NCBI GenBank assembly: GCA_020073445.1
Contig: JAIQFE010000001.1
Coordinates: 124,001 to 188,000 of the forward strand
Reading direction: 5' to 3'
Length of the DNA stretch: 64,000 bases
Source of the DNA: Terriglobia bacterium
GTDB lineage: Bacteria; Acidobacteriota; Terriglobia; Bryobacterales; Bryobacteraceae
Shown: piece by piece, positions 13,838 to 33,302 of the stretch
How positions within the stretch are numbered: the stretch's first letter is position 1
Layout of the letters: every line of letters begins with the position of its first letter
The notes under the pieces: model-generated
Database searches by the model: none
Seen by the model: the letters and a program-made list of their open reading frames with translations, nothing else
What the model was told of the DNA's origin: nothing
Position numbers and translations under genes: made by a program

Positions 13838-13947
13838 TAGCAAATCCTGGCTCCTTCCACCCCTCTGTAGCTAAGTTGTTAGTTTTCAATTTCAATTACT
13901 TGCCGACTAGGCTATACTTCTGCCTATCTGGCCATTTTGGCAGAAAA

Positions 13948-13970: not shown

Positions 13971-14020
13971 CAGGGCCGGACAAGGCGGTAATCTCCAGCC
14001 AGTTTGGGAGGCACCGAGAG

Positions 14021-15208
14021 ATGACTATCGTAGCGATCCGCAAGCCAGCCAAGACCCCGACGGAATCTAAAACTGTAGCCGCTAATCAGAAGGCAATCGA
14101 ATCCTTGCCGCTAGAGAGTGGCACGTGGCGCGTGGAAGGCGTGCCGGGCCTATATCTTCGCTGCCGAATTAAGAGCAAGTCGTTCTTCCTTCAGCGACGC
14201 GTACAAGGCCAACTCGTGAAAGAGACGCTCGGGGAGTTACCAATGAAGCGCGCACGAGAGCAGGCCATGAAAGCGTGGAGCGGTCTGAAACCCAAACCGG
14301 TTGCGCATGAAGTCGTGACCCTTGGGGCTGCAATCGAGCGCTATCTGGAAGAGAAGACGCTTGCATCTAAGACCGTTCAGAATTATAGCTACAACTCGGA
14401 GCACTATCTGAAAGACTGGAAGTACCGCGGACTGCATGACGTGGGCAACGACCGCGCCGGTTTCCGTTATTTGCAACGTCAGATCCGAAAGAACCACGGA
14501 CCCGCTGCTAGTAACCAGGTGGTGCGGCTTGTTTCCGCCGTCTATCGCTGGCAGCGGAAGATTGACCCCACGCTGCCCGAGTCTCCCACCACAGCCGTTG
14601 AGATCGAGGCGATACCGGCGCGGGATTGGGCGTACACACCTGAGGAACTTCGCTCCTGGTGGTACGCGCGGGAAGAAAAAGACGGCAAGATGACGGAGAG
14701 CGGCGTAAAGACGCTCGGGCCAATCAAACGTATGTGGTGGATCACGGCGCTTTTCACTGGCGCGCGAAAAGGAAGCATCGAAGCCCTTCAGTGGACGGAT
14801 CTAGATTTGGAAAAGAAGACGATTCGCTTCCGAGTGACGAAAGGTGACAGACCCTACATCGTTCCAATGAGCGACAGGCTAGCAGGGTTTTTTACTGCCT
14901 ATCGCCACAGCGGCAACGTTCCACCTTCTGATTGGGTATTTCCCTCGAATGCGAAAGCGGGGCACCATATAGTGGGCGTCAAGAATGACAGGGAGGGGGT
15001 CGGACCGGCCCATCGGTTGCGTCACACGTTTAGGACTGCGCTTGCGCAGCTTGGTGTCCCCAACGATCAAGCCCGGATGTTAATGGGGCATTCCATGAGC
15101 GGTGACATCTCTCTTGGATACATTACGGCACCCTTAGTGTTGGAGGCACTGCGCCCAAGCACCAACGGCGTCGCAGACCATTATTTGAGAATGGTAGACA
15201 TAGACTAA
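14021..15208 (+). CDS. int: Tyrosine recombinase/integrase
   Basis: 395 residues from ATG 14021, which has GGAGG at 14007-14011; a TTG at 13937 would add 28 residues over the repeat sites. The N-terminal region (about 1-95) resembles the DUF4102 arm-binding domain of P4-type integrases. A SAM-like core-binding domain follows, then the catalytic domain with R249 (TGARKGS), H331-x-x-R334 (HRLRH), H357 (GHSMSG) and nucleophile Y367 (LGYIT). All key residues are present, so the enzyme is probably active. It sits beside the left attachment site, as expected for a tRNA-targeting island. Confidence 0.93.
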   Translation: MTIVAIRKPAKTPTESKTVAANQKAIESLPLESGTWRVEGVPGLYLRCRIKSKSFFLQRRVQGQLVKETLGELPMKRAREQAMKAWSGLKPKPVAHEVVTLGAAIERYLEEKTLASKTVQNYSYNSEHYLKDWKYRGLHDVGNDRAGFRYLQRQIRKNHGPAASNQVVRLVSAVYRWQRKIDPTLPESPTTAVEIEAIPARDWAYTPEELRSWWYAREEKDGKMTESGVKTLGPIKRMWWITALFTGARKGSIEALQWTDLDLEKKTIRFRVTKGDRPYIVPMSDRLAGFFTAYRHSGNVPPSDWVFPSNAKAGHHIVGVKNDREGVGPAHRLRHTFRTALAQLGVPNDQARMLMGHSMSGDISLGYITAPLVLEALRPSTNGVADHYLRMVDID

Positions 15209-15991: not shown

Positions 15992-16198
15992 ATGGAATTA
16001 CAGGCGCCGAAAACGACTCAGAATGTCGGGCCTGGCCGATGGGTCACGGAACGTGTCTACGCCGAGTACCACGGACTCGCACGGCAGACGCTGACCAATT
16101 GGCGTTATCGTGATCGCAAGGCCGGGCGCAATCATGCTGAGCCCGGCTATCCCCAGTACTCCTACTTCGGACGAGCGGTGAGGTACTGGGTCGCATGA
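15992..16198 (+). CDS. Small AlpA/excisionase-like DNA-binding protein
   Basis: 68 residues. The pattern 'VTERVYAEYHGLARQTLTNW' followed by a basic tail and 'YFGRAVRYW' is that of MerR/AlpA-like winged-helix proteins, which serve as excisionases or activators in P4-like satellites and islands. Its stop overlaps the primase start (ATGA), so it is coupled to the replication genes. Confidence 0.65.
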   Translation: MELQAPKTTQNVGPGRWVTERVYAEYHGLARQTLTNWRYRDRKAGRNHAEPGYPQYSYFGRAVRYWVA

Positions 16199-16926
16199 CC
16201 GCGGCAAAGATTGCACGCGCGCTTCTCCGCGGCCGCAAGAGTGGCGCGGGATATATCGCGTGCTGCCCGGCTCACGAGGATCACAACCCGAGTTTGAGCT
16301 TGAAGGATGGAGAGGGCAAACTGCTCGTGTGCTGCCACGCGGGCTGCTCACAAGAAACCGTGATTGCAAAGCTCAAGGAAATGGAATTGTGGCCGGAACA
16401 CGATAGCAGCAAGAAGTCACGCATTGTGGAGGTATACGACTACACCAGTGCCTCCGGCCACATCCGGTACCAGGTGGTCCGCACGGATCCCAAAGGGTTC
16501 TATCAGCGCAAGCCAGACGCCACTGGCGGTTGGACCAACCGCGGCCCAACGGACCGCGAAAAATTACTCTACCGCCTACCGGAAGTCATCGAGGCTCCGA
16601 TTGTCTTCGTTGTGGAGGGAGAAAAGGATGTAGAGACGCTCCGGGCGCACGGCTTCGTAGCTACAACGAACGCGGGCGGCGCCAAAGCCATATGGCTCCC
16701 GCAATACACCGAGGTGCTGAAGAGCCGCGAATGCATCATCATCCCCGACAATGATCGCCCCGGCTGGAGGCGAGCTGCCTCAATCGGTCGGGCCCTCTTG
16801 GGGGTGGCGGAGCGCATTCGAGTGCTGGATCTGCCGCCGGAGACCAAGGACATTAGCGATTGGTTTGCCGGTGGCCACAGTGACTCGGAGCTCATCGCTC
16901 TGCTGGAAGGTGTGCATGCCCTTTGA
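16195..16926 (+). CDS. CHC2 zinc-finger and TOPRIM primase of phage/plasmid type
   Basis: 243 residues. The N-terminal zinc ribbon has C24-P-A-H27 and the CHAGC pair (C47, C51). The TOPRIM core has the glutamate motif FVVEGEKDVET and the acidic pair motif IIIPDNDRPG. Family members prime replication of phages, plasmids and satellites. The C-terminus is short, so the helicase part must come from another protein. The gene overlaps the genes on both sides, which indicates one operon. Confidence 0.8.
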   Translation: MTAAKIARALLRGRKSGAGYIACCPAHEDHNPSLSLKDGEGKLLVCCHAGCSQETVIAKLKEMELWPEHDSSKKSRIVEVYDYTSASGHIRYQVVRTDPKGFYQRKPDATGGWTNRGPTDREKLLYRLPEVIEAPIVFVVEGEKDVETLRAHGFVATTNAGGAKAIWLPQYTEVLKSRECIIIPDNDRPGWRRAASIGRALLGVAERIRVLDLPPETKDISDWFAGGHSDSELIALLEGVHAL

Positions 16927-18214
16927 GATCAGCTCTGAGGCCGATCTCAGTGAGGTTGAAGCTCGGGCGAAGACTAGCCCGAACCCAGACGATCAACTCC
17001 AGATTGCGAATGGTATTGAGTCTGGGCCGGAGGTCATCAGTTGGCCGGACCGCTTGCGGGCAGAAGCATTCCACGGTGTGGCGGGCGAATTCGTGCGCCT
17101 GATTGAACCTCACTCGGAAGGTGATCCTGCAGCGATCCTCATTCAGACCCTTGTCGCCTTCGCGAACGTCATCGGCCGGTCAGCCTATTTCCGAGCCGAA
17201 GCCGATCGCCATTACACGTCACTCTACTTGGTGATCGTCGGCGCCACATCCAAGGGCCGCAAGGGAACGTCCTGGGGTCAAGTGCGGCGGGTGTTTGAGG
17301 GGGTCGATGCCGAATGGGCCAAGGCGCAAATAATGGGCGGTCTGGCGTCTGGAGAGGGGCTTATACACGTTGTTAGCGATGATGGCGGGCGTTCGGATAA
17401 GCGCTTACTAGTGATGGAGCCGGAGTTCGCCCGTGTACTGCAGGTATCTGAGAGAGAAGGCAATACGCTCTCAGCGATCATCCGTCAGGCGTGGGACACC
17501 GGCATGCTGAGCATGTTAACGCGGAAGAATCCACTCCATGCTAGCGATGCCCACATCTGCATCATCGGGCACATTACCCGCGACGAGGTGAGGCGGCTTC
17601 TGACAGACACCGCAGCAGTGAACGGCTTTGCAAACCGGTTCTTGTGGTGCTGCGCACGCCGTTCGAAAATGCTCCCGGACGGCGGAGCACTGGACACCGA
17701 GGACTTTGAGCCTATCGTACAGCGCATCCGACTTGCGGTGGATTTTGCGCTTCAACTGGGTGAATTGCGCCGGGATGATTCTGCACGTATCTTATGGCAC
17801 GAGTTTTATCCATCGCTTTCAGAAGGGCACCCAGGGTTATTAGGCGCAGTAACCTCACGAGCTGAAGCCCAGACGATGCGGCTGGCATGCGTCTATGCCG
17901 TCTTGGACCGCTCGCCCGTGATCCGTAGGGAACATCTCTTGGCCGGACTAGCTGTCTGGCAGTACTGCGAGGCATCAGCGCGGTGGTTATTCGGCGCGAC
18001 GCTGGGGGACGCCACGGCGGATGAGATCCTACGCATTTTACGCGAAAGGCCAGAAGGCCTGACTAGGACAGAGATCAGCGCCCACTTCCGCCGACACAAG
18101 CCGGCGGCCGAAATCGGGCGGGCCCTGTCACTGCTGTCTGAACTTGGCCGAGCGCGCATGGACCGACAGCCAGAGGGGGAGGGTCGGCGTACCGAACGAT
18201 GGTCTGCGACGTGA
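16916..18214 (+). CDS. DUF3987-type protein of mobile elements
   Basis: 432 residues from ATG 16916 with GGAAGG just upstream; it overlaps the primase end by 11 bp. The region 'IVGATSKGRKGTS' at about 95-108 looks like the modified P-loop of DUF3987 proteins, which often follow primases in islands. The segment 'HICIIGHITRDEVRRLL' and a C-terminal winged-helix-like part (about 365-430) complete the family picture. It may act as helicase-like partner of the primase. I am sure of the mobile-element family but not of the activity. Confidence 0.75.
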   Translation: MPFEISSEADLSEVEARAKTSPNPDDQLQIANGIESGPEVISWPDRLRAEAFHGVAGEFVRLIEPHSEGDPAAILIQTLVAFANVIGRSAYFRAEADRHYTSLYLVIVGATSKGRKGTSWGQVRRVFEGVDAEWAKAQIMGGLASGEGLIHVVSDDGGRSDKRLLVMEPEFARVLQVSEREGNTLSAIIRQAWDTGMLSMLTRKNPLHASDAHICIIGHITRDEVRRLLTDTAAVNGFANRFLWCCARRSKMLPDGGALDTEDFEPIVQRIRLAVDFALQLGELRRDDSARILWHEFYPSLSEGHPGLLGAVTSRAEAQTMRLACVYAVLDRSPVIRREHLLAGLAVWQYCEASARWLFGATLGDATADEILRILRERPEGLTRTEISAHFRRHKPAAEIGRALSLLSELGRARMDRQPEGEGRRTERWSAT

Positions 18215-18531: not shown

Positions 18532-19235
18532 ATGAGGGTGGCTATTTACACGCGCGTCTCCACTCGGGATAAAGGTCAAGACGTCCTTAACCAGGTCACT
18601 CCCATTAGAAATCTGTGCGTTCAAGAGGGCTGGGACATCTGGCGTGAGTACGAGGACCATGACTCCGGAACCAGGGCCGATCGAACTCAGTTCCAGCGGA
18701 TGCTTAAGGATGCCGCTGAAAAAAAATTGACCTTCTAGTTTTTTGGTCGCTTGATCGGTTGACCCGAGAAGGCACTCTCGCCACCTTGAAATATTTGGAG
18801 CTTCTTGAAAAATATGGAGTTCGCTGGCGAAGTTTCATGGAGCCGTGGATCGACAGCGCCGGGCCTTTTCGCGATGTAATTATTAGTCTGCTTGCCAGCC
18901 TGGCCAAGCAAGAGCAAATTCGGATTTCGGAGCGAGTCAGAGCCGGCTTGAATCGAGCCAGGCTCGGCGGAACGAAGAGTGGCAAACCCTTCGGTCGACC
19001 AAGAGCCGTTTTTAGGCGCGATCAAGTCCGCACCCTTCGAGACCGAGGTCTCTCATGGCGCCAGATTGGCAAGCTGCTGGGCGTGAGCGGGTCGACGGTC
19101 CGGCGAGCATACGAGGCCGAGGCGACTGAGTTACCCTTGCCAGAAACCGCTCTTGGGGGTTTTGTGCAGCCGCCAGAGAACTTGGCCGGTCCCCGTAAAG
19201 CCGGACAGCTATCCCAGGACAACCAAGAGAGCTGA
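18532..19235 (+). CDS. Serine recombinase (resolvase/invertase), split by a frameshift at an A8 run
   Basis: The first part (18532-18738) has the catalytic motif YTRVSTRDKGQD (S10) and DSGTRADRTQF. It then runs into a stop after the A8 run at 18719-18726. A -1 shift at that run joins it to the second frame, which reads LVFWSLDRLTREGT, then the E-helix and a C-terminal HTH (LGVSGSTVRRAY). The joined product would be 234 residues, the normal length of Tn3-type resolvases. The shift may be programmed slippage on A AAA AAA, a real mutation, or a sequencing error in the homopolymer. Confidence 0.72.
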
Positions 19236-20373: not shown

Positions 20374-21957
20374 TTAATCGGCGTTGCTCTTTTCCAAACG
20401 CACCGTGAAGTGGAAGGTGCTGCCTTGCCCGACTTCGCTCTCCACCCAAATCCGTCCAGCCATCATTTCCACCAGTTTCGCCGAGATCGCCAGGCCGAGA
20501 CCCGTTCCGCCGAACTTACGCGTGGTTGAATTGTCTGCCTGGGAAAACCGTTCGAAAATCACCCGCTGTTTGTCGGGCGCAATACCGATTCCGGTATCCT
20601 GCACGGCAAAGTGCAATCGAACGTAGTCTCCGCTGTCGGGATCCGGCTGAACTCCCAAAGTGACACTGCCCCGGGGCGTGAACTTTATCGCATTGCCCAT
20701 GAGGTTCAGAATGATTTGCCGCAGCCGGTGCGGGTCTCCTCGCATAAACTGCGGTACGTTGGTGGCGATCTCCAAGAAGAGAGTCAGCCCTTTCTCATGG
20801 GCACCCGGCATCAGCAATTTCAGTGTCTCCGCAGTCTTATCGCGAAGATCGAAGTCCACTAGATCCAAGACCAGGTGTCCAGCCTCGATTTTGGAAAAGT
20901 CCAGAATCTCGTTGATGATGGTCAGTAGCGATTCAGCTGATATTTTGACTGTCTGCAAGTAGTCCCGCTGTTCGGAGGTCAATTCCGTTTCTAGCGCCAG
21001 ATCCGTCATGCCGATAATCCCATTCATCGGAGTGCGGATCTCGTGACTCATATTGGCCAGGAACTGACTCTTGGAGCGCGCGGCTGTCTCGGCGGCCTCC
21101 TTCGCTTGCCGCAGATAATTTTCCGCCAGTTTACGCTCGGTGACGTCGGTCAATATGGCGACAGTGCCGTCGAACTCGCCAGTGCGACTGAACATCGGCG
21201 ATGCGGAGACGATGGTCCACAATTCGCGGCCGTCTTTCCGGCGCCAACTCAGGTCGTATTGCTCGGTGTTCCCATTTCGGCGGCATTCAAGCTTCGATCG
21301 CACTATGGAAGCCGACTCAGCGTCCATGAAATCAAAGATGCTGTGGTCGACCATTTCAGAAATGTCGTAACCCAACCGCGAGGCGAAAATGTTATTGACA
21401 TAGGTCATTTCCATGACACTGTTGGTCTCGCAGATACCCTCATGGATACCCTCAACGATGGTGCGTAATCGCTTCTCGTTGTCAATCAAGAGCGCTTGGA
21501 TCTGCCGCATTTCGCTGGCGTCACGAATAACCGCAATCGACCGGTGTCCGGCAGCCATGTGCGTATGGCTGAGCATGATGTCTACTGGAATCTCGCGCCC
21601 GTCCTTGTGCAAAGCGAAGAGGTCTTGCGCCATACCCATGTGGCGTGTTCCGTGCCTTTTCGAAAAACGGGCTCGATGACCGGCGTGATCTCTGTTGAAA
21701 CGAGTCGGAAGCAGATCCTCGACCTTCCGGGCCTCCAGTTCTTGGCGGCTATAGCCAAGCATGCGCGCCAGTGATGCGTTGACCCGTAGGATGCGTCCGT
21801 CATCATCGGCGACCAGTACGCCGTCCGGCATGGTTTCGACAAGTACCATTTCCTCTGTGATACGTCCTAACGATCGATCCTCGTGTTGCTTGGAGACGGT
21901 CTCCAGAGAGGTCGGGTTATCGCACTTCACGTTCTGCGCGGCAATCAGTTCTTCCAC
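20374..21957 (-). CDS. Sensor histidine kinase, PAS-PAS-HisKA-HATPase
   Basis: 527 residues, no membrane segment. PAS domains lie at about 33-155 and 160-285. The HisKA motif FLANMSHEIRTPMNG has the phosphorylated H305. The ATPase domain shows the N-box (ILNLMGNAIKFTP), DTGIGI and GGTGLGLAIS. There is no receiver. It follows fliM after 6 bp on the same strand, so it is the last gene of the switch operon. Its partner regulator is not adjacent; the PhoB-type regulator at 25504 is the nearest DNA-binding candidate. Confidence 0.9.
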   Translation of the reverse strand: MEELIAAQNVKCDNPTSLETVSKQHEDRSLGRITEEMVLVETMPDGVLVADDDGRILRVNASLARMLGYSRQELEARKVEDLLPTRFNRDHAGHRARFSKRHGTRHMGMAQDLFALHKDGREIPVDIMLSHTHMAAGHRSIAVIRDASEMRQIQALLIDNEKRLRTIVEGIHEGICETNSVMEMTYVNNIFASRLGYDISEMVDHSIFDFMDAESASIVRSKLECRRNGNTEQYDLSWRRKDGRELWTIVSASPMFSRTGEFDGTVAILTDVTERKLAENYLRQAKEAAETAARSKSQFLANMSHEIRTPMNGIIGMTDLALETELTSEQRDYLQTVKISAESLLTIINEILDFSKIEAGHLVLDLVDFDLRDKTAETLKLLMPGAHEKGLTLFLEIATNVPQFMRGDPHRLRQIILNLMGNAIKFTPRGSVTLGVQPDPDSGDYVRLHFAVQDTGIGIAPDKQRVIFERFSQADNSTTRKFGGTGLGLAISAKLVEMMAGRIWVESEVGQGSTFHFTVRLEKSNAD

Positions 21958-21963
21958 AGCCTT

Positions 21964-22917
21964 CTAGTCCCGTTCGTACTCACAAGCCACTTTAAGCGCG
22001 ACCTTTGTTCCCGCCAACTCGACGTCGCCCCAGAACTTCGGTGCGCCGTTCAGAAGAGCAGTAACCTTTCGATCAAGAGGATAATCAAGGGCGAGGACGT
22101 CACCGGCCTCAAGATTGAGCAAGGTTCCTGCTGAAATGGTTTCGCCGTCCAAACGTACCTCCATCTCCACGCCAACTCTAGCCAGCAACTCCGCCATGTG
22201 AACCTGGTCCCGGCGTTTTGATTCGGCGCGGTGAACCCGGCGAAGGCGGTCAAACATATGCCGCAGCCGTTTAATGAAGATGGAAGGAATCGCCAGGTTC
22301 ATCATGCCTGTCGTCGAGGCTACACGAACTTCAATCCCGATGGTAACCACGGCTTCTGCGGGAGATAGAATGTGGAAGCCTTGGGGTTCGTCCGCTAACG
22401 ATTGAACGGCGAAGCGGATATCGGCAACCGTTTTCCAGGCGTCACCGAGGTCCTGAAGAGCGATCCGGAGCAGGTTCTGCATCAGATGTTTTTCGATCTC
22501 GGTTACCTTGCGCTGAGGATTCCCAGCCGTTTTGCCGCCTCCCCCGAGCAGCATCTCGACGAAAGTGAAGACGAGCGCAGGGTTAAGTTCCATGACCGCG
22601 GTGCCGTCATAGGGCCGCAGACCAACGTAGGCAATGAACGTCGGCGAGGCAAGTCCTTCCAGGAACTCCCCGTAAGAGATTTGTTCCAGACTCACTAGAT
22701 TCATGCTGACGTAATCGCGAAGATATGCGGAGAGGCTCGACGCCAAGTTCCGGGCGAAGTTCTCGTGTACCAGGTGAACAGATCGGATTTGAGATTTCGG
22801 AATGCGGTCCAGCCGGCTAAAGTCGAAGGGGACTACTGCGGGCTTGCTATCGCGGGTTGCGTCACTCGACCCCTGGAAGACGGCGTCAATCTCTTGCTGT
22901 GACAGTTCACGTTTCAT
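21964..22917 (-). CDS. fliM: Flagellar motor switch protein FliM
   Basis: 317 residues, about normal length. The N-terminal CheY-binding segment LSQQEIDAVF (5-14) is conserved. The middle CheC-like domain carries 'YGEFLEGLASPTFIAYVGLRP', and the SpoA/FliN-like C-terminal domain covers about 235-315. FliM forms the C-ring with FliG and FliN and binds phosphorylated CheY to reverse rotation. Presence of the CheY-binding motif means that it could take signals from the element's own CheY proteins. Confidence 0.92.
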   Translation of the reverse strand: MKRELSQQEIDAVFQGSSDATRDSKPAVVPFDFSRLDRIPKSQIRSVHLVHENFARNLASSLSAYLRDYVSMNLVSLEQISYGEFLEGLASPTFIAYVGLRPYDGTAVMELNPALVFTFVEMLLGGGGKTAGNPQRKVTEIEKHLMQNLLRIALQDLGDAWKTVADIRFAVQSLADEPQGFHILSPAEAVVTIGIEVRVASTTGMMNLAIPSIFIKRLRHMFDRLRRVHRAESKRRDQVHMAELLARVGVEMEVRLDGETISAGTLLNLEAGDVLALDYPLDRKVTALLNGAPKFWGDVELAGTKVALKVACEYERD

Positions 22918-22957
22918 CGGTTCACCCAGACTGCTGATTCTTGCCGCCGTTCCTCCG

Positions 22958-23812
22958 TCAATTCCCCGCGGCTTGATGACTGACGCGCGTTGCCCGGGTG
23001 ACCGCCGAACTCTGTAGCGCGAAGCGATCCTTACGGCTGATCACCTCCTGGATCTTGACGCCGTAATTTCCGCCAACGGACACCACTTCCCCACGCGCCA
23101 CTACCGCACCGTGCACAACGATTTCGACGGGCTCGCCTACATGATGATCCAGCTCCACAAGCGATCCTGCCGTCAGCTTGAGCACCTCTCGGATTTGCAA
23201 TTTTGCCCGACCCAACACCACCGAGACCGGCAGCTCCAGGTCAACCAACCGGTCGAGCCTTGCCGATTCGTCCGACGTACTCAAGGCATCCCCGAGTGGC
23301 TCCGATGGGCGCTGCTCTTTTTCCCGCAGAAGGGCGGCAAAGGCCGGGTGAACACCCACCAGGATTGGGAAACGTTCTCGCCCCGGCATCACGAGCCATG
23401 CGGTTTCGACGTCGGCCAGGTCCGGAGGTAAGGAACCGTCTTCGATCGCTTGCTTACAGACGATTCTTGGCGTGAGGCCGGAACTGAGCACATGGGCCGC
23501 ACCCTCCAAAGACTGCTGCAACAGCTCCTTGTAAAGCGCTTCCCGGCCCGCGGAATCCTCCGCAGAAGTCTCGGTAAGAGCAGTGCATGTTGCAACCGGA
23601 GTTCCGATCCAGACGGCGGCGCCTTCTTCCCGCTCGAATATCTGCCCCTGCCACAGAATTGAGTCTCCCGCGTCGAACGTCTTGCCCGACCCGGTTGCCC
23701 CATCATATTCCAGCTTCACGGGTTGGCCGGTGAACATCTCGACAGACTTCTCAAATTCGGCGGTCCACGCTTCGAGAAACGTCTGCAATGCTTGTTGGTT
23801 GCCGTGCGCCAT
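22958..23812 (-). CDS. FliN/FliY-type switch protein with long N-terminal region
   Basis: 284 residues. The C-terminal SpoA domain (about 185-258) reads LDRLVDLELPVSVVLGRAKL, then 'AGSLVELDHHVGEPVEIVVHG' and GNYGVKI, all typical of FliN. The 180-residue N-terminal region has no clear FliM-like or CheC phosphatase motif, so it is not a standard FliY. It lies between fliN and fliM in an operon with gaps of 4 and 40 bp. It probably replaces or caps part of the FliN ring. Confidence 0.82.
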   Translation of the reverse strand: MAHGNQQALQTFLEAWTAEFEKSVEMFTGQPVKLEYDGATGSGKTFDAGDSILWQGQIFEREEGAAVWIGTPVATCTALTETSAEDSAGREALYKELLQQSLEGAAHVLSSGLTPRIVCKQAIEDGSLPPDLADVETAWLVMPGRERFPILVGVHPAFAALLREKEQRPSEPLGDALSTSDESARLDRLVDLELPVSVVLGRAKLQIREVLKLTAGSLVELDHHVGEPVEIVVHGAVVARGEVVSVGGNYGVKIQEVISRKDRFALQSSAVTRATRVSHQAAGN

Positions 23813-23816
23813 AAGA

Positions 23817-24143
23817 TTACTCCCCGCGACTGCGAACTCCTTCGGGCTCCACTTGATCCTCTTCCTGCAGGTCTGGGAGGCGGGCGTTGCGGAGATCGGC
23901 GAGTCTCACTGCCATCGTCCCGTCCAACAGCAGCACCTCACCCCACCCCAGCAGGATGTCTTCGATGTAGATGTCGATGTTTTCGCCGGTCGGCCGCGAT
24001 AGCTGAATCAGGCTGTCCACATCGAGGTTCAGCAACTCGGCGAAAGTCAAGATGGTTTGATCCAACTCGGCGCGCACGGTGACCTGAATATGCTCGATTC
24101 GGTCCATTCGATCTAGGAGCGGGTCTGGTTGGTCAGGTTTCAT
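23817..24143 (-). CDS. fliN: Short FliN-type switch protein (SpoA domain)
   Basis: 108 residues, nearly all one SpoA domain (about 18-90): 'IQVTVRAELDQTILTFAELL', then LIQLSRPTGENIDIYIEDIL and AVRLADLR. The usual 'GN(F)GVRI' signature is replaced by 'LLLDGTMAVRLADL', so it is somewhat divergent. It sits between fliG and the long FliN-type gene. Two different SpoA proteins plus FliM are therefore encoded side by side. Confidence 0.8.
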   Translation of the reverse strand: MKPDQPDPLLDRMDRIEHIQVTVRAELDQTILTFAELLNLDVDSLIQLSRPTGENIDIYIEDILLGWGEVLLLDGTMAVRLADLRNARLPDLQEEDQVEPEGVRSRGE

Positions 24144-24158
24144 GCCGTGGCTCAGTTT

Positions 24159-25190
24159 CTAGTTGATATACTGCTCGGCCGGAGAATTCTTGAGACTGAT
24201 GGTGCCGTCCTTCTCGAGCTGGCGCGCTAGTGTGATGATCTGCTGCTGGGCAGCATCAACTTCCTTTATCTTGACGGGGCCTAGGGCGGCCATGTCTTCC
24301 TTCATCATTTCCGCGCCTCGCTGGGACAGGCTCTCAGTAAAGCGTTTCTTCAGTTCCTCGCTAGTGCCCTTCAGCGCGATCATCAAGACTTTGCGATCGA
24401 CAGCACCTACCAGCTCCTTGAATCCGCTGGCATCGAGTCCCGCAAGATCATCGAAAACAAACATGAAGCGCCGGACACTCTCAAACAACTCTGGATTCTC
24501 TTTTTCCACCGTATCCAGGAGCTGACTGCAGTTATTTGGATCCAGCCGATTAAGCATGTCGGCTACAGCTCGCACGCCACCGCAGGCCTCACGGCTGAGC
24601 TCTCCAAGGTTTCTGAGCTTTTGCCCGATGACCGTTGCGATTGTCCGCACGGCCTCCGGAGAAATCTGTTCCAGACTGGCCATCCTCACCGCGATGTCGG
24701 AACGCTTTTCGACCGGGAGTGCGGCAATTAGTGCGGCCGCCTGGGATGGATCAAGATGCGAGAGCACGAGGGCAATCGTCTGGGGGTGCTCGTCCTGGAT
24801 GAATTTCGCCAGCTGCTGCGGATCTACCCGGCGGAGATTACTGAAATCGGGCCCGTCCCGGTCCAGGGTCTTCGCGATGCGATCGACAAGGCGGGTAGCG
24901 TGATCCTCCCCAAAGGCCTCGGTGAGCATTGCCCTGGTGCGTTCAAGACCTCCCTGGGTATCGACGTTTCGAGTGCTAACCGCCAGTTGAAATTCGCCCA
25001 GCACCGCTTCGGTTTGCTGAGACGTGACTGCATCCAGCTTGGCAATCGAGGCGGTGATCCTATCGACCTCTTCGTCACTCAGCTGCTTCAGGATCCCAGC
25101 GCTAGCAGTCGGACCGAGGGACAGCAGAACGATCGCGGCCTTCTGGAGCCCGGTGAGCGAATTCTGAAGTGACATACCTGGACTTGACAT
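24159..25190 (-). CDS. fliG: Flagellar motor switch protein FliG
   Basis: 343 residues, normal length. The N-terminal FliF-binding domain (about 10-105) is present, with the FliM-contacting motif EHPQT at 134-138 and the C-terminal torque domain (about 235-330), which ends KEDMAALGPVKIKEVDAAQQ. The torque helix keeps charged residues (KKR, ESLSQRGAEMMKED). No fliF, motA or motB lies in the window, so the rotor ring would have to join a base encoded elsewhere. It is first gene of the leftward switch operon. Confidence 0.93.
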   Translation of the reverse strand: MSSPGMSLQNSLTGLQKAAIVLLSLGPTASAGILKQLSDEEVDRITASIAKLDAVTSQQTEAVLGEFQLAVSTRNVDTQGGLERTRAMLTEAFGEDHATRLVDRIAKTLDRDGPDFSNLRRVDPQQLAKFIQDEHPQTIALVLSHLDPSQAAALIAALPVEKRSDIAVRMASLEQISPEAVRTIATVIGQKLRNLGELSREACGGVRAVADMLNRLDPNNCSQLLDTVEKENPELFESVRRFMFVFDDLAGLDASGFKELVGAVDRKVLMIALKGTSEELKKRFTESLSQRGAEMMKEDMAALGPVKIKEVDAAQQQIITLARQLEKDGTISLKNSPAEQYIN

Positions 25191-25503: not shown

Positions 25504-26304
25504 ATGAATCACCGGCAGGTACTTGTAGTTGAGGATGAGCAGATCGTAGCGCTCGATCTGGAGATGTTCCTTGGAACGATGGGATACGACGTCGCTCTGG
25601 AAACGACCGGCGAAGGCGCGGTGGAAGCCGCTGGAAGGCTGAAGCCGGATGTTGTATTGATGGATATTCGGCTTGATGGCGATCTCGATGGCATCCAGGC
25701 GGCAGAGCGGATCCGGAAGGAAGCTGAGATCCCGGTTGTTTTTCTCACGGCATATACCGATCATCAAACAATAGAACGCGCTGCACGAGTGGACCCTTCC
25801 GGTTATGTTGTCAAGCCCTTCAATGAAAAGGACCTGGCCGCGACTCTCCACCTCGCGCTCCACAAACCCCGAATTCGACGTCGAACTTTCGCTGGCGGTC
25901 CGCAGACCCGGGGTACAGGAAGCCAGGGCAGTGATTCTCCGCACGAAGAAGGAATCCGGGTAGCTTCCGTAGTCCGAATCGGCGACCTCAGGATAGATTC
26001 CGTGCACCGTCAGGTTTTCCGGCGGGGAACAGAGATCCAACTCACCAAAAAGGAGTTCGATGTGCTTGAGTGTCTCGCCGAACATCCAGGCGTACCAGTG
26101 AGTTCTGAGGCGTTGCTAACCAGGGTGTGGGGTCCCCAATTTGTGCACTACATCCAGACGCTCCGCGTTCACCTCGGGAACTTGCGGCAAAAGATCGAGA
26201 GTGATTCCTCCTCCGGAATCCGGATCGAAGCCGTTCGCGGCGTAGGATATCGCCTAATCGAGGCCGGTCTGACGCATCTAGAGCACGTCAGCCTGACGAA
26301 CTGA
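25504..26304 (+). CDS. Response regulator, receiver plus OmpR/PhoB-type winged helix
   Basis: 266 residues. Receiver (about 4-120): acidic pocket E10-D11, phospho-acceptor D54 (VLMDIRLDG), FLTAY and PSGYVVKPF. After a linker of about 35 residues comes the Trans_reg_C domain (about 160-255): QLTKKEFDVLECLAEHPG, VWGPQFVHYIQTLRVHLGNL and VRGVGYRL. It is probably a transcription factor of the element. Regulators of this class bind direct repeats with 11-bp spacing, such as those at 36087-36104 and 36180-36197. The damaged receiver at 42507 resembles this receiver. Confidence 0.9.
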   Translation: MNHRQVLVVEDEQIVALDLEMFLGTMGYDVALETTGEGAVEAAGRLKPDVVLMDIRLDGDLDGIQAAERIRKEAEIPVVFLTAYTDHQTIERAARVDPSGYVVKPFNEKDLAATLHLALHKPRIRRRTFAGGPQTRGTGSQGSDSPHEEGIRVASVVRIGDLRIDSVHRQVFRRGTEIQLTKKEFDVLECLAEHPGVPVSSEALLTRVWGPQFVHYIQTLRVHLGNLRQKIESDSSSGIRIEAVRGVGYRLIEAGLTHLEHVSLTN

Positions 26305-26352: not shown

Positions 26353-26829
26353 TTATGCGCGCTCCTGGTCCGACACTTGCACGAGGGTGACCCAGAAGGG
26401 ACCCAACTCACTCGAGAAACCGAACGTCTTGGAAGCATTGCGTCCACAGATGTGAAGCGCGTAGTGATTCCCCTCCACCACCGACGGCATGGAGAGCGCG
26501 ACTCCAGGAGGCAGTACAGACTTCAGGTTTCCCCCCACCATGTTGGCCAGTTCGCCGAGGGCATCCCGAACGTCCTCGTCGAATCGGGAGGGCTTTTGGC
26601 TAGGGATCAAAGAGGTTGTGAAAGCAAACGCTTGCCGCGGACTGCATCGCAGCAGCACGGCCCCCTTCCAATCACCGACGAACTGGACGGCTGCCGTCAG
26701 CAATCCCGGTTCGGATGAATCGCCCGTTTCGGACGTAGCGACTTCCAGACACAGCATCGTGCGGAATACGTCCTCCACAATGCGGGCGACGTCTGTCTGA
26801 TGGGCATCGATCTCAAAGGTAACGGGCAT
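26353..26829 (-). CDS. cheX: CheX-type CheY-P phosphatase
   Basis: 158 residues. The phosphatase helix motif E93-L-A-N96, followed by MVGGN, matches the ExxN of CheX/CheC proteins. The fold segments 'VQFVGDWKGAVLLRCS' and 'PSVVEGNHY' also fit. It removes phosphate from CheY. It is the last gene of the cheA...cheX operon, 13 bp after cheR. A second CheX lies at 36722. Confidence 0.83.
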   Translation of the reverse strand: MPVTFEIDAHQTDVARIVEDVFRTMLCLEVATSETGDSSEPGLLTAAVQFVGDWKGAVLLRCSPRQAFAFTTSLIPSQKPSRFDEDVRDALGELANMVGGNLKSVLPPGVALSMPSVVEGNHYALHICGRNASKTFGFSSELGPFWVTLVQVSDQERA

Positions 26830-26842: not shown

Positions 26843-27682
26843 TCAGGGCGCCTGGTAGAATACCGTGCGGCCTGCCGGCACGCGCCGGAACTCGTTGTCC
26901 AGATTCAGCGTGCTCTCCGATCCGCCCAGGATCAGATAACCTCCCGGGAATAGCGCGCCGCGCAGCTCTTGCAGGATCTTTTTCTTGGTCTCCACATCGA
27001 AATAGATGAGAACATTGCGGCAGAAGATTATGTCAAACGGACCCTTCGTTCGCATGCTCTTCCTAAGGTCGAATTGCTCAAACCGGACCATGTTTCGAAG
27101 GTGATCCTTAATTTGCCAGTCCAGACCCCGGCGTTCGAAGTGTTTGAGCAGGTAGTTGGCTGGCAATCCCCGGTTGACTTCAATCTGCAGGTAGCGTCCT
27201 TCCCGTGCCCGCGCGAGAATCTGGTCGGAAAGGTCCGTTCCCAGAATCTGAATGTTCCAGCCAGACAGTCCCATTTCAAGCAACAACATGCCGAGGCTGT
27301 AGGCTTCTTGCCCAGAGGAAGCCGCAGCCGACCAGAAAGTCAGTTTGCGGGTCGTTTTTCGTTGCTCGATGAGCGGGGGGAGAATCTCGGTCTTCAGCGC
27401 ATCGAAGGGCGCGATGTCGCGGAAGAACAGTGTTTCATGAGTGGTCATAGCTTCGACCACTCTCTTGTGGAGCGGCGGGTCACCGTGGTTGCGCAGGGCC
27501 GTGCAGAGGGCGTCTAGGGAAGCCAAGTGAGATTGCTGCACGATGGGCAGCAATCGCGCCTCTAGCAGATAGTGCTTGTCGTCGTCCAATACAATTCCCG
27601 ATTCCCGGTAGACGTACTCCTTCAGGAAGCGGTAATTCTCCGCGCAAATCGGCGACGTTGTTGTGGTGGTCTCTGGCATCAT
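26843..27682 (-). CDS. cheR: Chemotaxis protein methyltransferase CheR
   Basis: 279 residues from ATG 27682, overlapping the cheB stop (ATGA). The N-terminal helical domain (YRFLKEYVYRESGIVLDDDK, TTHETLFFRD) is followed by the SAM-binding methyltransferase fold (FWSAAASSGQEAYSLGM, GTDLSDQILARAREGRY, IFCRNVLIYFD). It methylates receptor glutamates; the receptor encoded in the same operon is the expected substrate. Confidence 0.93.
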   Translation of the reverse strand: MMPETTTTTSPICAENYRFLKEYVYRESGIVLDDDKHYLLEARLLPIVQQSHLASLDALCTALRNHGDPPLHKRVVEAMTTHETLFFRDIAPFDALKTEILPPLIEQRKTTRKLTFWSAAASSGQEAYSLGMLLLEMGLSGWNIQILGTDLSDQILARAREGRYLQIEVNRGLPANYLLKHFERRGLDWQIKDHLRNMVRFEQFDLRKSMRTKGPFDIIFCRNVLIYFDVETKKKILQELRGALFPGGYLILGGSESTLNLDNEFRRVPAGRTVFYQAP

Positions 27683-28824
27683 CTTGTGCTCAGCGCTTCG
27701 GTGCGCCGGGGAGAGGTCGTCGCCCGGCCGGTCCTGCGGAGGATTTCCGGGATTACTCCGTCCAGGGGCACTACCGAATCGGCCAGCCCGGCGTTGACGA
27801 CGGCGCCCGGCATGCCCCACACGACGCTGCTCGCCTCATCTTGGGCGATGATCCAGGCGCCATGCGCTTTCAGAATTTCCGCGCCACGCAGGCCGTCGTA
27901 CCCCATGCCGGTCAGCACGGCCGCGATCACGGAACCGCCATAGACTTCCTCCACCGAGCGGAACATGACGTCCACCGCGGGCCGGCAGGAATTTTCAGGT
28001 GGTCCTTGATCCAGCGTCACGGTTTTCGCCAGACGTTTCTTGCTCAGGCGCATGTGATAGTTGCCGGGTGCGATCAGCACCTTTCCAGGCTCGACGACCG
28101 CGCCCTCCGTAGCTTCTTCCACTTTGAGCTTGGTTGCAGCCTGCAGCCGCTCCGCGAGAAGACGCGTGAAAACGGGCGGCATGTGCTGCACGATCAGGAT
28201 AGGAAGCGGGAAGTCGGACGGAATGGTCGGGATGATGGCGCCCAGCGCAGTAGGCCCTCCCGTCGAGATTCCAATGGCCACAACTTCTGGAGCGAAGGAC
28301 GGCCGGAAAGTGTTCGGGACTACCGGCTGCGATCGAACTGTCGCGGCTGTTGCCACCGGGGAAGGAGCGGCATGGTCTTGCTCCAGGCTGAAGAATTGCT
28401 TGATCTTGGGGATCAGCTCGCTCCGCAATGTGGTCAGCGAACGGTCGAGGGAGCCCTCGTTAGACGCCTTGGTGACATAGTCGTCCGCTCCGAGAGACAG
28501 AGCCTCCATGGTGGAAGCCGCCCCGCGTTCGGTGAGCGTGCTGAACATGATGACACGGAGGTCCGGATAGGCCGGCCGCAGGCGGCGCAGCATCTCCAGA
28601 CCATCCACTTCAGGCATTTCAATGTCCAGCGTGATCACGTCGGGATTGAGCTGGGGGATGCGCGCCAGGCCGATCGCCCCGTTCGGCGCCGAGCCGACGA
28701 CCTCCAGCGACGGATCTGCTTCCAGCGCGTGCGTGACCAGCCGCCGGATCACGACGGAATCGTCCACGACGAGCACCCGGATCCGGCTGCCGCGGCGAAT
28801 GATCTTCTTAGAAAGGGCGCCCAT
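27679..28824 (-). CDS. cheB: Chemotaxis response regulator protein-glutamate methylesterase CheB
   Basis: 381 residues. The receiver has D21/D22 and phospho-acceptor D67 (ITLDIEMPEVDG). After a linker (about 140-178) the esterase domain carries S187 (GISTGGP), H214 (QHMPP) and D310 (LTGMGYDG), the complete catalytic triad. It removes receptor methyl groups and balances CheR. Confidence 0.94.
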   Translation of the reverse strand: MGALSKKIIRRGSRIRVLVVDDSVVIRRLVTHALEADPSLEVVGSAPNGAIGLARIPQLNPDVITLDIEMPEVDGLEMLRRLRPAYPDLRVIMFSTLTERGAASTMEALSLGADDYVTKASNEGSLDRSLTTLRSELIPKIKQFFSLEQDHAAPSPVATAATVRSQPVVPNTFRPSFAPEVVAIGISTGGPTALGAIIPTIPSDFPLPILIVQHMPPVFTRLLAERLQAATKLKVEEATEGAVVEPGKVLIAPGNYHMRLSKKRLAKTVTLDQGPPENSCRPAVDVMFRSVEEVYGGSVIAAVLTGMGYDGLRGAEILKAHGAWIIAQDEASSVVWGMPGAVVNAGLADSVVPLDGVIPEILRRTGRATTSPRRTEALSTR

Positions 28825-28835: not shown

Positions 28836-29210
28836 TTACTGAATCACGCCCATCAGTCGCAGCTTGTCGGCAATGATCTCCTTGGTGAAGGGCTTCATTA
28901 CGTATTCGTTTGCGCCGGCTTCGAGGGCTACAGTAACTTGCTGCATCTCCGTCTCGGTGGTCACCATCATCAACGGAACAGAAGAAAACCGTGAATCCGC
29001 ACGAAGGCACTTTATGAACTCCAGGCCGTTCATTTCGGGCATGTTCCAGTCCACAAGAATCAGAGAAAGTCCGCCGCTCTCCCGCTCTGCTAATGCGAGG
29101 CCTTCTTTGCCATTCGCGGCCTGGCAAACCTCATATCCCAGCTCCGCAAGAGTGTTTGTGAGAATCATGCGGATGGCACGCGAGTCGTCGATCACCATTG
29201 CTTTAGGCAT
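28836..29210 (-). CDS. cheY: CheY-like single-domain response regulator
   Basis: 124 residues from ATG 29210; a GTG at 29231 is the alternative. D8/D9, D54 (ILVDWNMPEMNG), the TTE switch region and YVMKPF are all present. It is transcribed after the glutamyl-tRNA reductase gene and before cheB. It is likely a target of CheA and may signal to the FliM encoded nearby. Confidence 0.9.
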   Translation of the reverse strand: MPKAMVIDDSRAIRMILTNTLAELGYEVCQAANGKEGLALAERESGGLSLILVDWNMPEMNGLEFIKCLRADSRFSSVPLMMVTTETEMQQVTVALEAGANEYVMKPFTKEIIADKLRLMGVIQ

Positions 29211-29240
29211 CAGAACTTCCGATCCTCCCACTGATCATGT

Positions 29241-30350
29241 CTAGGCCACTAAGTTCGCTACGGCGTTCTGGTCAATGAATCCGGAGGCTTCACGGAGCTC
29301 GTCTCTGTTCGCGGGATGATGGCCGGCAGAGCGGCGCAGCCTCCAGCGGCTCCAGCGGGACAGCTCCTGGACTAAGATGGCCTCGACGCGCGGAACTTCC
29401 TTGCGTCGCGCGGAGAGCGCCTGCTCTTGTTCCAAATCGAGTGCATCCAGATTCATCAAACGAACCTGGGACAATTCCGCCACTGCGGGATCGACGTTTC
29501 GGGGAATCCCCGCGTCTACGATCAACAGTTGCTGGTGGCGTCCCGCCGTGAAGCGTTGTACTGAATCCCGATCCAAGATTTCCAGACGTGCCGAGGTCGC
29601 CGCCACCAGGACATCGATGTCAGCCAATCGATCGCGTACCTGCTCCCACTCCGCGGTGCATCCCTGAAATTCACGCGCCATATGGGCCGCCTGTTCAGGA
29701 TTTCGGGCAGCGAACGTCCGGCTGGCGAGGTGAACTTTAGACAGGTGATAGGCGATGTCCCGGCCTGCCTCTCCTCCGCCCAGAACTAGCGTACGAACTT
29801 GTGTTAGATCGGGGAAGGCGTGACGAATGGAGCGGAGAACGGCGGCACCCACACTCGCCGCCCCTTTGCCGATCGCCGTCTCCCGCCGTGTCCTCTTAGA
29901 GGCACGGAGGCTTTCGGTGACCATGCGATCCAGAGTGGGGCCCAGCGTTCCGGCTTCAAAGGCGGTGCGATGCGCCTGCTTCACCTGCGTAACGATGTGC
30001 GTATCTCCCAGGATCTGGGAGTCGATCCCCGCAGTTACTCGGAACAGATGCCATGCGGCACGGTCGTCCAACTCCACGAAACGGAGACAATCTTCGTGCA
30101 GTGCGCGGGCGTGGCGGCGGAGCGTGCGAAGACTCTCCAATATGGAAGCGACCGGCGACTCACCCTGGTAAGCCAGGTAGAATTCGGTGCGGTTGCAGGT
30201 CGCCAACAAAAGCGCCTCCTGTACGCCGCCGATCTCGACAAGTCGCGGCAACAGCTCCAGCGCCTGCTCACGCGTGAATGTAAGTTCTTCGCGAACTTCC
30301 ACCGGAGCGCGGCGATGGTCCACACCGAGTAATACGATCTGTTGGGCCAT
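29241..30350 (-). CDS. hemA: Shortened glutamyl-tRNA reductase paralogue inside the chemotaxis operon
   Basis: 369 residues against about 415-460 for usual GluTR. The catalytic domain keeps C52 in ATCNRTE. The ring region reads SQILGDTHIVTQVKQAH where the usual form is close to 'LGEPQILGQVK'. The NADPH domain has LVLGGGEAGRDIAYHLS. After it only about 60 residues remain, ending in an Arg-rich stretch, so most of the C-terminal dimerisation domain is missing. GluTR makes glutamate-1-semialdehyde, the precursor of haem. Here it follows the haem-type receptor gene by 50 bp. It may boost haem supply or have become a sensor or regulator; activity is uncertain. Confidence 0.85.
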   Translation of the reverse strand: MAQQIVLLGVDHRRAPVEVREELTFTREQALELLPRLVEIGGVQEALLLATCNRTEFYLAYQGESPVASILESLRTLRRHARALHEDCLRFVELDDRAAWHLFRVTAGIDSQILGDTHIVTQVKQAHRTAFEAGTLGPTLDRMVTESLRASKRTRRETAIGKGAASVGAAVLRSIRHAFPDLTQVRTLVLGGGEAGRDIAYHLSKVHLASRTFAARNPEQAAHMAREFQGCTAEWEQVRDRLADIDVLVAATSARLEILDRDSVQRFTAGRHQQLLIVDAGIPRNVDPAVAELSQVRLMNLDALDLEQEQALSARRKEVPRVEAILVQELSRWSRWRLRRSAGHHPANRDELREASGFIDQNAVANLVA

Positions 30351-30400: not shown

Positions 30401-32419
30401 CTACTGGCCCTTCGACTTGAGGACCAGCCCCTGGAGCTGCGCCGCCAGTTCGCTTAACGCCTGGGCTGCCTTTTGGGTGTCGTTGGCCCCCTGCGTCGTT
30501 TCACGAGCAGCCTGGGCAACGCCCGAGATGTTCTTGGCGATGTCGCCAGTCCCCTTGGCCGCTTCAGTAACATTCCGGCCGATCTCGTTCGTGGTCACTG
30601 TCTGTTCTTCCACCGCGGAGGCGATATTGTTGGAGATGTCATTGATCTGATTGATCACCGAGCTGATCTCTCCAATCGCCTGCACAGCGCCCTTGGTATC
30701 GGCTTGAATCGCCTCGATTTTCTGACCGATGTCCTCGGTTGCCTTTGCGGTTTGCTTGGCCAGTTCCTTCACCTCGTTGGCCACCACCGCGAAACCCTTG
30801 CCCGCCTCACCGGCGCGCGCGGCTTCGATGGTTGCGTTCAAGGCCAGCAGGTTCGTCTGCTGAGCAATCGAAGTGATCACCTTGATCACCTTGCCGATTT
30901 CGACGCTCGATTCACCCAATTTGGAGATGGTCTGGTTGGTGGTTTCCGCCACGGAGACTGCGTTCTTGGCCACGCGCGCGGCTTCATTGGCGCTCTTGGA
31001 AATTTCGCGAATAGAAGCCTGCATCTCTTCGGATCCGGTCGCCACGACGCTGACGTTCTTGGACACCTCTTCGCTGGCGGCGGAAACTACATTGGCTTGT
31101 GTGGCCGTCTCTTCGGCGTTACCCGCCATCTGCTGGCTGATCGCGGTCAGTTCTTCGGCCGACGATGACAAGGTGTTGGCGTTCTGTTCGATCTGGCTTT
31201 CCAGCTCCAACTTCTTGGTGATGAGGCTCCACGTCACCATGGGCCCCATGTAGTTGCCCTTGCTGTCGTAGATCGGACTGACCAGCAAGTCGAGCGTTTC
31301 CGGTCCCAGCTTGATGTTCGCGCGGTGGGGGAGGTTCTTGGGGTCCGCCAGCATGCGCCGCTGGTGTTCCGGATTCTTGTGGAAGATATCGATCGATTTG
31401 CCGATGATGTCCTCGACTTTCACCGGTAGAAGGTGCTGCACGGCTTTCAACTGCTTCGTCGAGGCCGGATTCACGTAGCGAATAGTCAGGTCCGTATCGG
31501 CATAAAGAATGTTGATGGGCATGTTCTCCATCATGGACTGCGCGCGAGCCGCCTCCACTTCCAGGCGCTTTTTCTCGCTGATCTCTTCCCAGTTGACGAC
31601 AATGCCGATGTACTCGCCGGTCTCGCTCAGGATGGCGTTGACGTTCAGATCGAGGATCAGATCCGCCAGCTTGATCTCGGTGCGAATTGGCAGGCTGCTG
31701 GCGTCGCTGAGCATGCGGCGGATCTGTTTGGCCCGGTCGCCGTGAAAGCTGTCGATCTTGGTCCCAATCAGTTCACCGAACGATACGCCGAACAACTTTT
31801 CGATGGTTGAGCCGAGCTTGCGCATGATGTCGGTGGCTCGACGGTTCATGTAGATCAATCGGAGGTCCCTGTCGGCGATGAAGACGTTGGTCCCCAGACT
31901 GTCCAGCGCGCCCTTCATCCCTTCTAGGGCGTTCGTCAGATCGGATTCTACTTCTAGGACGGCAGACCCGCCCGAAACGTTGGTTTTCTCTTGCGCCATG
32001 TTATTCTCCTTGGATTCCTTGATATTCACAATGTCAACCGCGAGCGGTGCTACTGCCGCGACAATTTCCCCGATAGTTTCCTGGTCCACGCCCAGGGATT
32101 GAAGGGTGTCCACAAGATGCCCGGCCACTTTATCGAAGTGCTTTTGAGCGATTTTGAAGCGCGCGTGCGCGGTACGCATATCGCGGCCCCGGTATTCCGC
32201 GGGTCCACCTAGCGCCTGCGCAAAGAAGGCCCGCTGTTTGAATTTCAGGGCCTTCATGTTCAGGTTTGAAAAGAACCCCCGCAAATCCGGATCGGCCAGG
32301 ACGCGGTCATAGAAGGCGTCTACCGCCGCTTGAAGGGCCGAGGCGCCGCCGATGCGATCGTAGATGCAGTCTGCCACAGCGCTGTTCTGACCGTTGTCGG
32401 TCTTACCTTTTAATGCCAT
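30401..32419 (-). CDS. Soluble methyl-accepting chemotaxis protein with truncated hemoglobin and two PAS domains
   Basis: 672 residues, no membrane segment. Residues about 18-133 form a group I truncated hemoglobin: Y37 (B10) in [12 protein letters not shown] at 49-50, and predicted proximal H85 in [10 protein letters not shown]. Two related PAS domains follow (about 160-295 and 310-420), then HAMP-less signalling helices with the hairpin [20 protein letters not shown]. The ATG at 32419 follows a GGGAAAGGGAAAG stretch. At residue 141 an in-frame ATG (31999) has AAGGAG 6 nt upstream, so a globin-free form may also be made. It likely senses O2, NO or redox state in the cytoplasm and controls CheA. 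Confidence 0.92.
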
Positions 32420-32445
32420 TACTTTCCCTTTCCCTTTCGCGAGTC

Positions 32446-32802
32446 TCAGATCATCCAGCTGGTGATGTAGTTGGCGGTCCGGCACGCACCGAACAGCCAG
32501 GCGGTGCGGCGGTGCCAGGGACGGAGTTGCTCGGCGCCTTTGCGCACGCGTTCGCCCAGCACGAACATGACGCCATAGAACACCAAGGCGGACACGGAAA
32601 CAGTGACGTGAAACAGTAACAAGGGTGGCGGCGCGGAAATAGCTTTCTTGATGGCGCCACGGCTCACCTCAATCGCCAGCACCGATGCCAGGTCCAACCC
32701 GAATGCCGTGATCATGATGGGCACATGAATCCGGCGCCGGCGCCGCAGCAGGATGCCTGCGATCAGAATCAGTAAGACCAGTGTGGATGCGATATGAAAC
32801 AC
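32446..32802 (-). CDS. Small four-helix membrane protein, DUF420-like
   Basis: 118 residues from GTG 32802, which has GGGAG 6 nt upstream and follows cheW. Predicted helices lie near 3-17, 27-43, 55-80 and 92-110. His residues occur near the ends of helices (H3, the H in [22 protein letters not shown]), a pattern like DUF420 and other small proteins linked to haem or cytochrome oxidase. Assignment to DUF420 is by general resemblance only. Its place between cheW and the globin receptor suggests a membrane partner, perhaps haem-binding. Confidence 0.65.
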
Positions 32803-32813
32803 GTCAAGCTCCC

Positions 32814-33302
32814 TTAGTTGCAGACCTGCGTTTGCAGCACACGTTCCGCATTCAGGACCAGCAGGAGCCGGCCCTCCAGCTTGTATACGCCCTCGATCAA
32901 CTCGCGTTGCTCCCGCGGCATGTTGTCCGGAGGCGGCTCGTAACTTTCCGGCGGCACTTCCAGCACGTCTCCAATTTCGTCCACCAGCAGGCTCACGGCG
33001 CCTTCCTCCGAGCGCACCACCATGTTCATCGGAGTCTGCCCTTCGCCGCGCTTCGGCAAGCTCAGCCTGCGCCGCATATCCACTGCCGTGACGATCTGGC
33101 CGCGCAAGTTGATCAATCCCTCGATCACGTCCGGCGCCAGGGGCACACTGGTCATTTCGAGGTATCGGAGCACTTCCTGAACCTTCAGCACTTGGATTCC
33201 GAAGAACAAGTTGTCGACGAAGAAAGTGGAGTACTGCTGACTTTGGTCCGATGCGGTTTCCCGCCTTGGATTGCTCGCATCGCGGATCGTCATGTCGCTC
33301 AT
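32814..33302 (-). CDS. cheW: Chemotaxis coupling protein CheW
   Basis: 162 residues from ATG 33302, overlapping the cheA stop (ATGA). The CheW/SH3-like fold shows 'FGIQVLKVQEVLRYLEMTSV', then VIEGLINLRGQIVTAVDMRRRL and VDEIGDVLEV. It links CheA to the soluble receptor. Confidence 0.94.
   Translation of the reverse strand: MSDMTIRDASNPRRETASDQSQQYSTFFVDNLFFGIQVLKVQEVLRYLEMTSVPLAPDVIEGLINLRGQIVTAVDMRRRLSLPKRGEGQTPMNMVVRSEEGAVSLLVDEIGDVLEVPPESYEPPPDNMPREQRELIEGVYKLEGRLLLVLNAERVLQTQVCN

Follow-up and report, generated by a model that had tools for sequence, protein, structure and literature searches.

We examined a 64,000-nucleotide stretch of DNA (hereafter 'the window'; positions 124001–188000 of a 564-kb contig) from a soil-dwelling member of the Bryobacteraceae (Acidobacteriota), in which a set of flagellar switch genes lies within a ~35 kb island inserted at a tRNA-Thr gene. 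We put at roughly 0.6 the probability that this island carries a full chemotaxis pathway together with a complete flagellar C-ring that responds to CheY and is built on the FliF protein of its host. As such, it resembles a plug-in steering module that would serve the only flagellar motor of that host.

The switch operon (21964–25190, minus strand) comprises four intact open reading frames (ORFs) that are separated by short gaps and are arranged in the order fliG, fliN, fliY-like and fliM:

21964–22917, minus strand: fliM2; TIGR01397, 226.5 bits (cut-off 219.6); N-terminal CheY-docking peptide LSQQEIDAVF
22958–23812, minus strand: fliY-like gene (fliY2); Pfam FliMN_C; predicted N-terminal domain of the FliM/CheC/CheX fold and C-terminal FliN (SpoA) domain
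23817–24143, minus strand: fliN2; Pfam FliMN_C, 2.7e-17
24159–25190, minus strand: fliG2; TIGR00207, 316.8 bits (cut-off 226.7); EHPQT motif; conserved charged residues of FliG_C

An earlier note on this DNA had described these genes as FliG, two SpoA/FliN-type proteins and FliM encoded together, with the CheY-binding motif of FliM and the EHPQT motif of FliG retained; both points were borne out by matches to Pfam and NCBIfam and by alignment. FliG2 matches Pfam FliG_N, FliG_M and FliG_C (each at about 1e-33 to 1e-41), and its alignment contains the sequence EHPQTIAL as well as the FliG_C charged residues. FliM2 matches Pfam FliM (5e-52) and FliMN_C as well as FliM chains in the PDB, and contains a docking peptide, a middle domain and a SpoA domain; its N-terminus, MKRELSQQEIDAVFQG, is the docking peptide for phosphorylated CheY (CheY-P). 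The two other SpoA proteins of the island display clear matches to Pfam FliMN_C (2e-22 and 3e-17), and score 83.4 and 52.1 bits against the fliN equivalog TIGR02480 (cut-off 84.05). An AlphaFold model of FliY2 matches Salmonella C-ring FliM, T. maritima FliY, CheC and CheX in the PDB, which suggests that its N-terminal domain adopts the FliM/CheC/CheX fold. The CheC ExxN motif was not seen in the FliY2 alignment, and we therefore make no claim of phosphatase activity for this protein.

As the earlier note had stated, no fliF, stator, export or hook genes are found within the window. That note had proposed a search of the genome for fliF, motAB and a second switch, and had allowed that the window might simply hold one part of a split flagellar cluster of the host, with the rest of the flagellum elsewhere and no other switch set. 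The genome (a 6.58-Mb draft metagenome assembly of 102 contigs, 95.8% complete with 0.91% contamination) was searched by protein family and by protein. Two contigs (C81 and C51) together hold fliF-fliG1-fliI-fliJ, with fliG1 directly after fliF, as well as fliC, fliD, flgK, flgL, motA, motB, flhA, flhF, flgE/F/G, fliQ, fliR and flhB. A search of the genome with the SpoA domain returned six proteins, of which three are encoded in the window, two (FliM1 and FliY1) on C81, and one (FliN1) on C51. Two FliG proteins, 50% identical to one another, and one FliF were found, giving a tally of two each of FliG, FliM, FliY-like and FliN proteins versus a single FliF. The flagellum thus lies elsewhere but has its own switch set (FliG1, FliM1, FliY1 and FliN1), and since two switch sets are present for one FliF, a split cluster is ruled out. 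The sister genomes (G198, G205 and G119) possess the resident switch only, with FliG1 95–96% and FliM1 79–88% identical to those of the host, and no match to CheA was found in them.

Two further features, beyond what the earlier note had contained, are that the host FliM lacks a docking peptide and that no CheA was found in the genome other than the one on the island. FliM1 is preceded by a stop codon and has no docking peptide, and the FliM proteins of the three closest relatives, which have no CheA, likewise lack one. The N-termini of FliY1, FliN1, FliY2 and FliN2 also lack the peptide. Among the six SpoA proteins of the genome FliM2 alone possesses it, and therefore only the island FliM can take up CheY-P by the known route. 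In a comparison of 24 genomes, using the pattern [LV][ST]Qxx[IM][DE] at the FliM N-terminus, all 15 genomes with CheA had the peptide, and none of the 9 genomes without CheA did. (The script returned 14 of 15; in the remaining genome, G059, the peptide is in frame but lies ahead of the first standard start codon.) In genomes that encode two FliM proteins, such as G162 and G206, one has the peptide and the other, a relative of FliM1, does not. This family-wide pattern would make chemotactic competence predictable from FliM alone in uncultured Acidobacteriota. Separately, we observed that the peptide has been lost repeatedly in Bryobacteraceae that have no CheA, in different FliM lineages (L075–L080, L154–L156, L102 and L112), providing a natural record of the loss of chemotaxis with retention of flagella.

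The chemotaxis genes of the island lie upstream of the switch operon on the same strand, and are followed by a divergent cheY-cheX pair. These genes, and the two that adjoin the switch operon, are as follows:

20374–21957, minus strand: PAS-PAS histidine kinase (Pfam), 6 bp downstream of fliM
25504–26304, plus strand: OmpR-type response regulator (Pfam), divergent from fliG2
26353–26829, minus strand: cheX (CheY-P phosphatase family); Pfam CheX, 7e-18
26843–27820, minus strand: cheR; Pfam CheR, 1e-54; true start probably near 27680
27679–28824, minus strand: cheB; Pfam CheB_methylest, 1e-63
28836–29231, minus strand: cheY; Pfam Response_reg, 1e-26
29241–30350, minus strand: hemA2, a second glutamyl-tRNA reductase, inside the che operon; Pfam GlutR_N, 7e-39; TCNRTE motif
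30401–32485, minus strand: globin-PAS-PAS chemoreceptor (methyl-accepting chemotaxis protein, MCP); Pfam Bac_globin, 4e-25, and MCPsignal, 1e-31
33299–35965, minus strand: hybrid CheA with Hpt, dimerisation and ATPase domains, two CheW-like stretches and a C-terminal receiver (Pfam, NCBIfam)
36326–36712 and 36722–37246, plus strand: second cheY and cheX, respectively (Pfam)

The island CheA is the only CheA match in the genome, and no separate CheW was recognised among the che-operon ORFs tested. Apart from the hemA insertion, the order of this operon is that of the che operons of G162 and G053; the CheA proteins display 58–61% identity over their lengths, and the island cheY at 28836–29231 displays 54–62% identity to the cheY at the equivalent position. 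The second cheY-cheX pair stands divergent from fliG or fliM in relatives. The hemA2 gene, which is absent from the equivalent operons of G162 and G053, sits between cheY and the globin-domain chemoreceptor; its product, which shares 31% identity with the second HemA encoded in this genome (C39), may supply haem to that chemoreceptor. An ORF between the MCP and CheA (32446–33414) gave no family match, and a 103-residue homologue (46%) is found at the equivalent position in G162.

We surveyed 200 genomes of the family and found FliG in 181 of them, mostly as one copy; genomes with two FliG proteins usually also have two FliF proteins. FliG2 belongs to a clade (SH-aLRT 99) of FliG proteins that are encoded away from fliF, in a fliG-fliN-fliY-fliM operon, and the tree of FliM2 recovers the same clade (SH-aLRT 99). 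This operon is present in eleven other Bryobacterales genomes: G101, G128, G157, G166, G182, G190, G203, G211 (Acidobacteriaceae CP_BM_RX_15) and G212–G214 (Bryobacterales bog_105, palsa_124 and bog_377). The interval between fliF and fliI could be read in all of these but G157, whose contig ends soon after fliF, and it contains no fliG; we therefore regard the operon as a bona fide flagellar switch in those genomes. A genome-wide count, which covered seven carriers (G101, G128, G157, G166, G182, G190 and G203), gave one FliG match in each, that of the operon itself, and flagellar FliF was single in every carrier in which it was counted. The operon is apparently the only switch of the flagellum in the eleven relatives, and the genome of the window is the only carrier seen in which a fliG is also in place behind fliF. 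Three carriers (bog_105, palsa_124 and bog_377) have cheY-cheX-cheA-MCP-cheB(-cheR) genes that diverge from the operon and encode a CheA 55–56% identical to that of the island; in G182 the operon is divergent from a different che class.

The island itself is delimited by a pair of direct repeats, and contains several genes typical of mobile DNA near its left end:

13790–13837, plus strand: attL-like 48-bp direct repeat, left copy, identical to the 3' half of tRNA-Thr
13937–15208, plus strand: tyrosine recombinase (integrase), just inside the left end; Pfam Phage_integrase, 6e-14; PHROG integrase, 6e-37
16195–18214, plus strand: two overlapping ORFs, DNA primase and primase/helicase-like; PHROGs primase, 2e-29 and 2e-9
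18759–19235, plus strand: serine recombinase fragment without the N-terminal catalytic part; Pfam Resolvase, profile positions 79–143 of 145
48961–49008, plus strand: attR-like direct repeat, right copy, within tRNA-Thr(CGT) (48963–49038, minus strand)

The two repeat copies are identical (0 mismatches), the primase-like genes come after the integrase, and the GC content of the island is 0.574 versus 0.604 and 0.616 in its flanks. Beginning at 48961–48963 the sister genomes (G198, G205 and G119) are collinear with the window rightward, at 75–82% DNA identity, and not leftward; the far side of their tRNA gene carries other DNA, and the island is absent there. The insert is an integrative genomic island in tRNA-Thr, as indicated by its integrase, its direct repeats and its absence beside the tRNA gene in the sisters, and the word 'element' used in the earlier note was therefore apt. 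No conjugation genes were recognised among the proteins tested.

The left side of the insertion is less well controlled than the right. The urea carboxylase/allophanate hydrolase genes of the left flank were not found beside the tRNA gene in the sisters, save for ~85 bp left of the left repeat (13681–13765) that resemble the sequence left of the tRNA gene in G205 (score 50, against at most 25 in 30 shuffles). The same comparison with the sister flanks revealed no resemblance at the right edge of the island. The absence of the left-flank genes from the sister sites indicates that the tRNA gene is an integration hotspot with differing cargo, as does the presence in G205 (L254, C86) of two near-identical tRNA-Thr repeats 2.7 kb apart (9480–9527 and 12256–12303).

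We suggest, at about even odds, that the island acts as a mobile 'steering cassette', in which a che pathway moves together with a CheY-responsive C-ring of its own and makes a CheY-blind motor steerable through an alternative C-ring, or a mixed one, built on the resident FliF. In the reading that we favour, the island reached a host whose FliM1 has lost its CheY-P-binding peptide. FliG2 would then cap the host FliF, either replacing FliG1 or mixed with it, and FliM2, FliY2 and FliN2 would form a switch beneath FliG2. The island CheA would phosphorylate the island CheY proteins, which could dock in that form on the FliM2 N-terminus and so provide the host motor with directional control, with the two CheX proteins terminating the signal. 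We infer the expression of the island switch, its assembly on the host FliF, its switching, and ring exchange or mixing. The compatibility of FliG2 with the host FliF is supported by G203, a member of the same genus in which the operon is paired with a FliF that is 63% identical to that of the host, and by the FliF tail that binds FliG, which follows a common pattern in both lineages (host, RGWLREE; carriers, IRGWLEED-like). Comparison with the sisters revealed no alteration of this tail in the host that might suit FliG2 better.

Several observations weigh against this interpretation. FliG1 and FliM1 are under purifying constraint equal to that of the sisters (dN/dS about 0.04–0.18, NG86), such that either the island is recent or displacement of the resident switch has not taken place; both proteins are probably still in use. 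FliG2 and FliG1 are only 50% identical, and hybrid rings are therefore not guaranteed. The draft is 95.8% complete, which leaves some room for a second FliF. Finally, the association of motif loss with CheA loss rests on only four phylogenetically independent contrasts on well-supported branches, all or nearly all of which are in the expected direction and which are too few for significance.

The most serious alternative, though one that we consider unlikely, is that the operon came with the che genes from a lineage in which it was the sole switch, and is here a passenger that is unexpressed, excluded by FliG1 or starting to decay, so that the motor stays unswitched. Such a scenario would agree with the intact and conserved resident switch, with the lack of another FliG for the flagella of the eleven relatives (hence co-existence here is unusual) and with the fragmentary state of one neighbouring recombinase. 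However, all four switch ORFs and the che operon, the sole one with CheA in the genome, are intact, and FliM2 has kept a docking peptide that is degenerate or absent in five carriers of the operon (at least four of which lack CheA).

We consider it improbable that the island set serves a second flagellum, whose fliG-less partner FliF would be missing from the draft. About twenty genomes of the family do have two FliG and two FliF proteins, i.e. two flagella, and the assembly is both incomplete and divided among 102 contigs. Such a motor would nevertheless need roughly twenty further genes, whereas one fliF was found; moreover, every operon carrier with a FliF count has just one flagellar FliF, and the closest relatives have one flagellum only.

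We give very little credence to a binning or assembly artefact that joined an island contig from another organism to this draft metagenome assembly. The island lies inside a 564-kb contig, its right flank is collinear with the three sisters, the same sisters are the closest matches on the core flagellar contig C81, and contamination is low (0.91%); a foreign-contig origin was rejected on the basis of collinearity with the sisters on both contigs.

The earlier note had offered two readings, of which a switch that rewires the host motor is the better, given that the operon is apparently the sole switch in eleven relatives; the other, a non-flagellar C-ring (or secretion sorting platform), might be suggested by the presence of switch genes on a mobile island that has no fliF, but is barely credible, as FliG2 has torque-helix residues, FliG2 and FliM2 exceed flagellar equivalog cut-offs, SctQ equivalog scores of 20.9, 62.1 and 41.2 bits fall far below the cut-off of 100.8, no second MS-ring protein that could seat a FliG was found, and the operon is a flagellar switch elsewhere.

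FliM, FliN and FliY occur together in the C-ring of Campylobacter jejuni and Helicobacter pylori (PMC6946799, PMC8809382), and the island resembles those systems in that one set combines FliG, FliM and FliN with a FliY that has a SpoA domain and a domain of the FliM/CheC type. Theirs is a single chromosomal set, whereas here the resident set is joined by a complete second one on an integrated island, and there is one FliF. The F14 chemosensory class of Nitratiruptor was transferred together with a whole flagellum (PMC9321776), which is similarly a joint gain of chemotaxis genes and their motor parts by horizontal transfer; in that case the whole flagellum was gained and the native one lost, while here the C-ring is the only motor part borne by the tRNA island, and the host has kept its own motor and C-ring. 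Borrelia burgdorferi also has two FliG homologues in one genome, FliG1 and FliG2, with divided labour (PMC7225975), but FliG alone rather than the whole switch is doubled, and the accessible part of that report describes no mobile element or difference in CheY docking.

The island shares with other tRNA islands that encode a tyrosine integrase its tRNA 3' repeats, terminal integrase, primase-like genes and variable site occupancy in relatives, and differs from them in its cargo of a chemotaxis pathway and a motor switch. We found no described tRNA island with a complete C-ring and chemotaxis cargo in those parts of the open-access literature that were available. Chemotaxis and motor are usually treated as tightly co-evolved; here the pathway seems to travel with the matching part of the motor and to leave the rest to the host. 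The system is a natural setting in which to ask whether C-rings are interchangeable on a single FliF, how chemotaxis returns to a non-chemotactic lineage, and whether mixed rings that contain CheY-blind and CheY-responsive FliM proteins can switch.

Three additional observations were made in the genomes of relatives. In G201 (L287/L288, C464), a genome without CheA and without the docking peptide, fliF is present as two overlapping ORFs, possibly due to a frameshift. In two of the operon carriers, G157 (L239, C120) and G166 (C53), a weaker SctJ/FliF-like protein of 264 residues adjoins a FliI-like ATPase that is 49% identical to FliI; this pair probably belongs to a type III system that is not flagellar. 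Genomes with two flagella contain another type of detached switch set (L145, L157, L159 and L160 with L221, L222, L224 and L225), in which fliG is divergent from or adjoins fliN/fliY/fliM and the second fliF has no fliG behind it.

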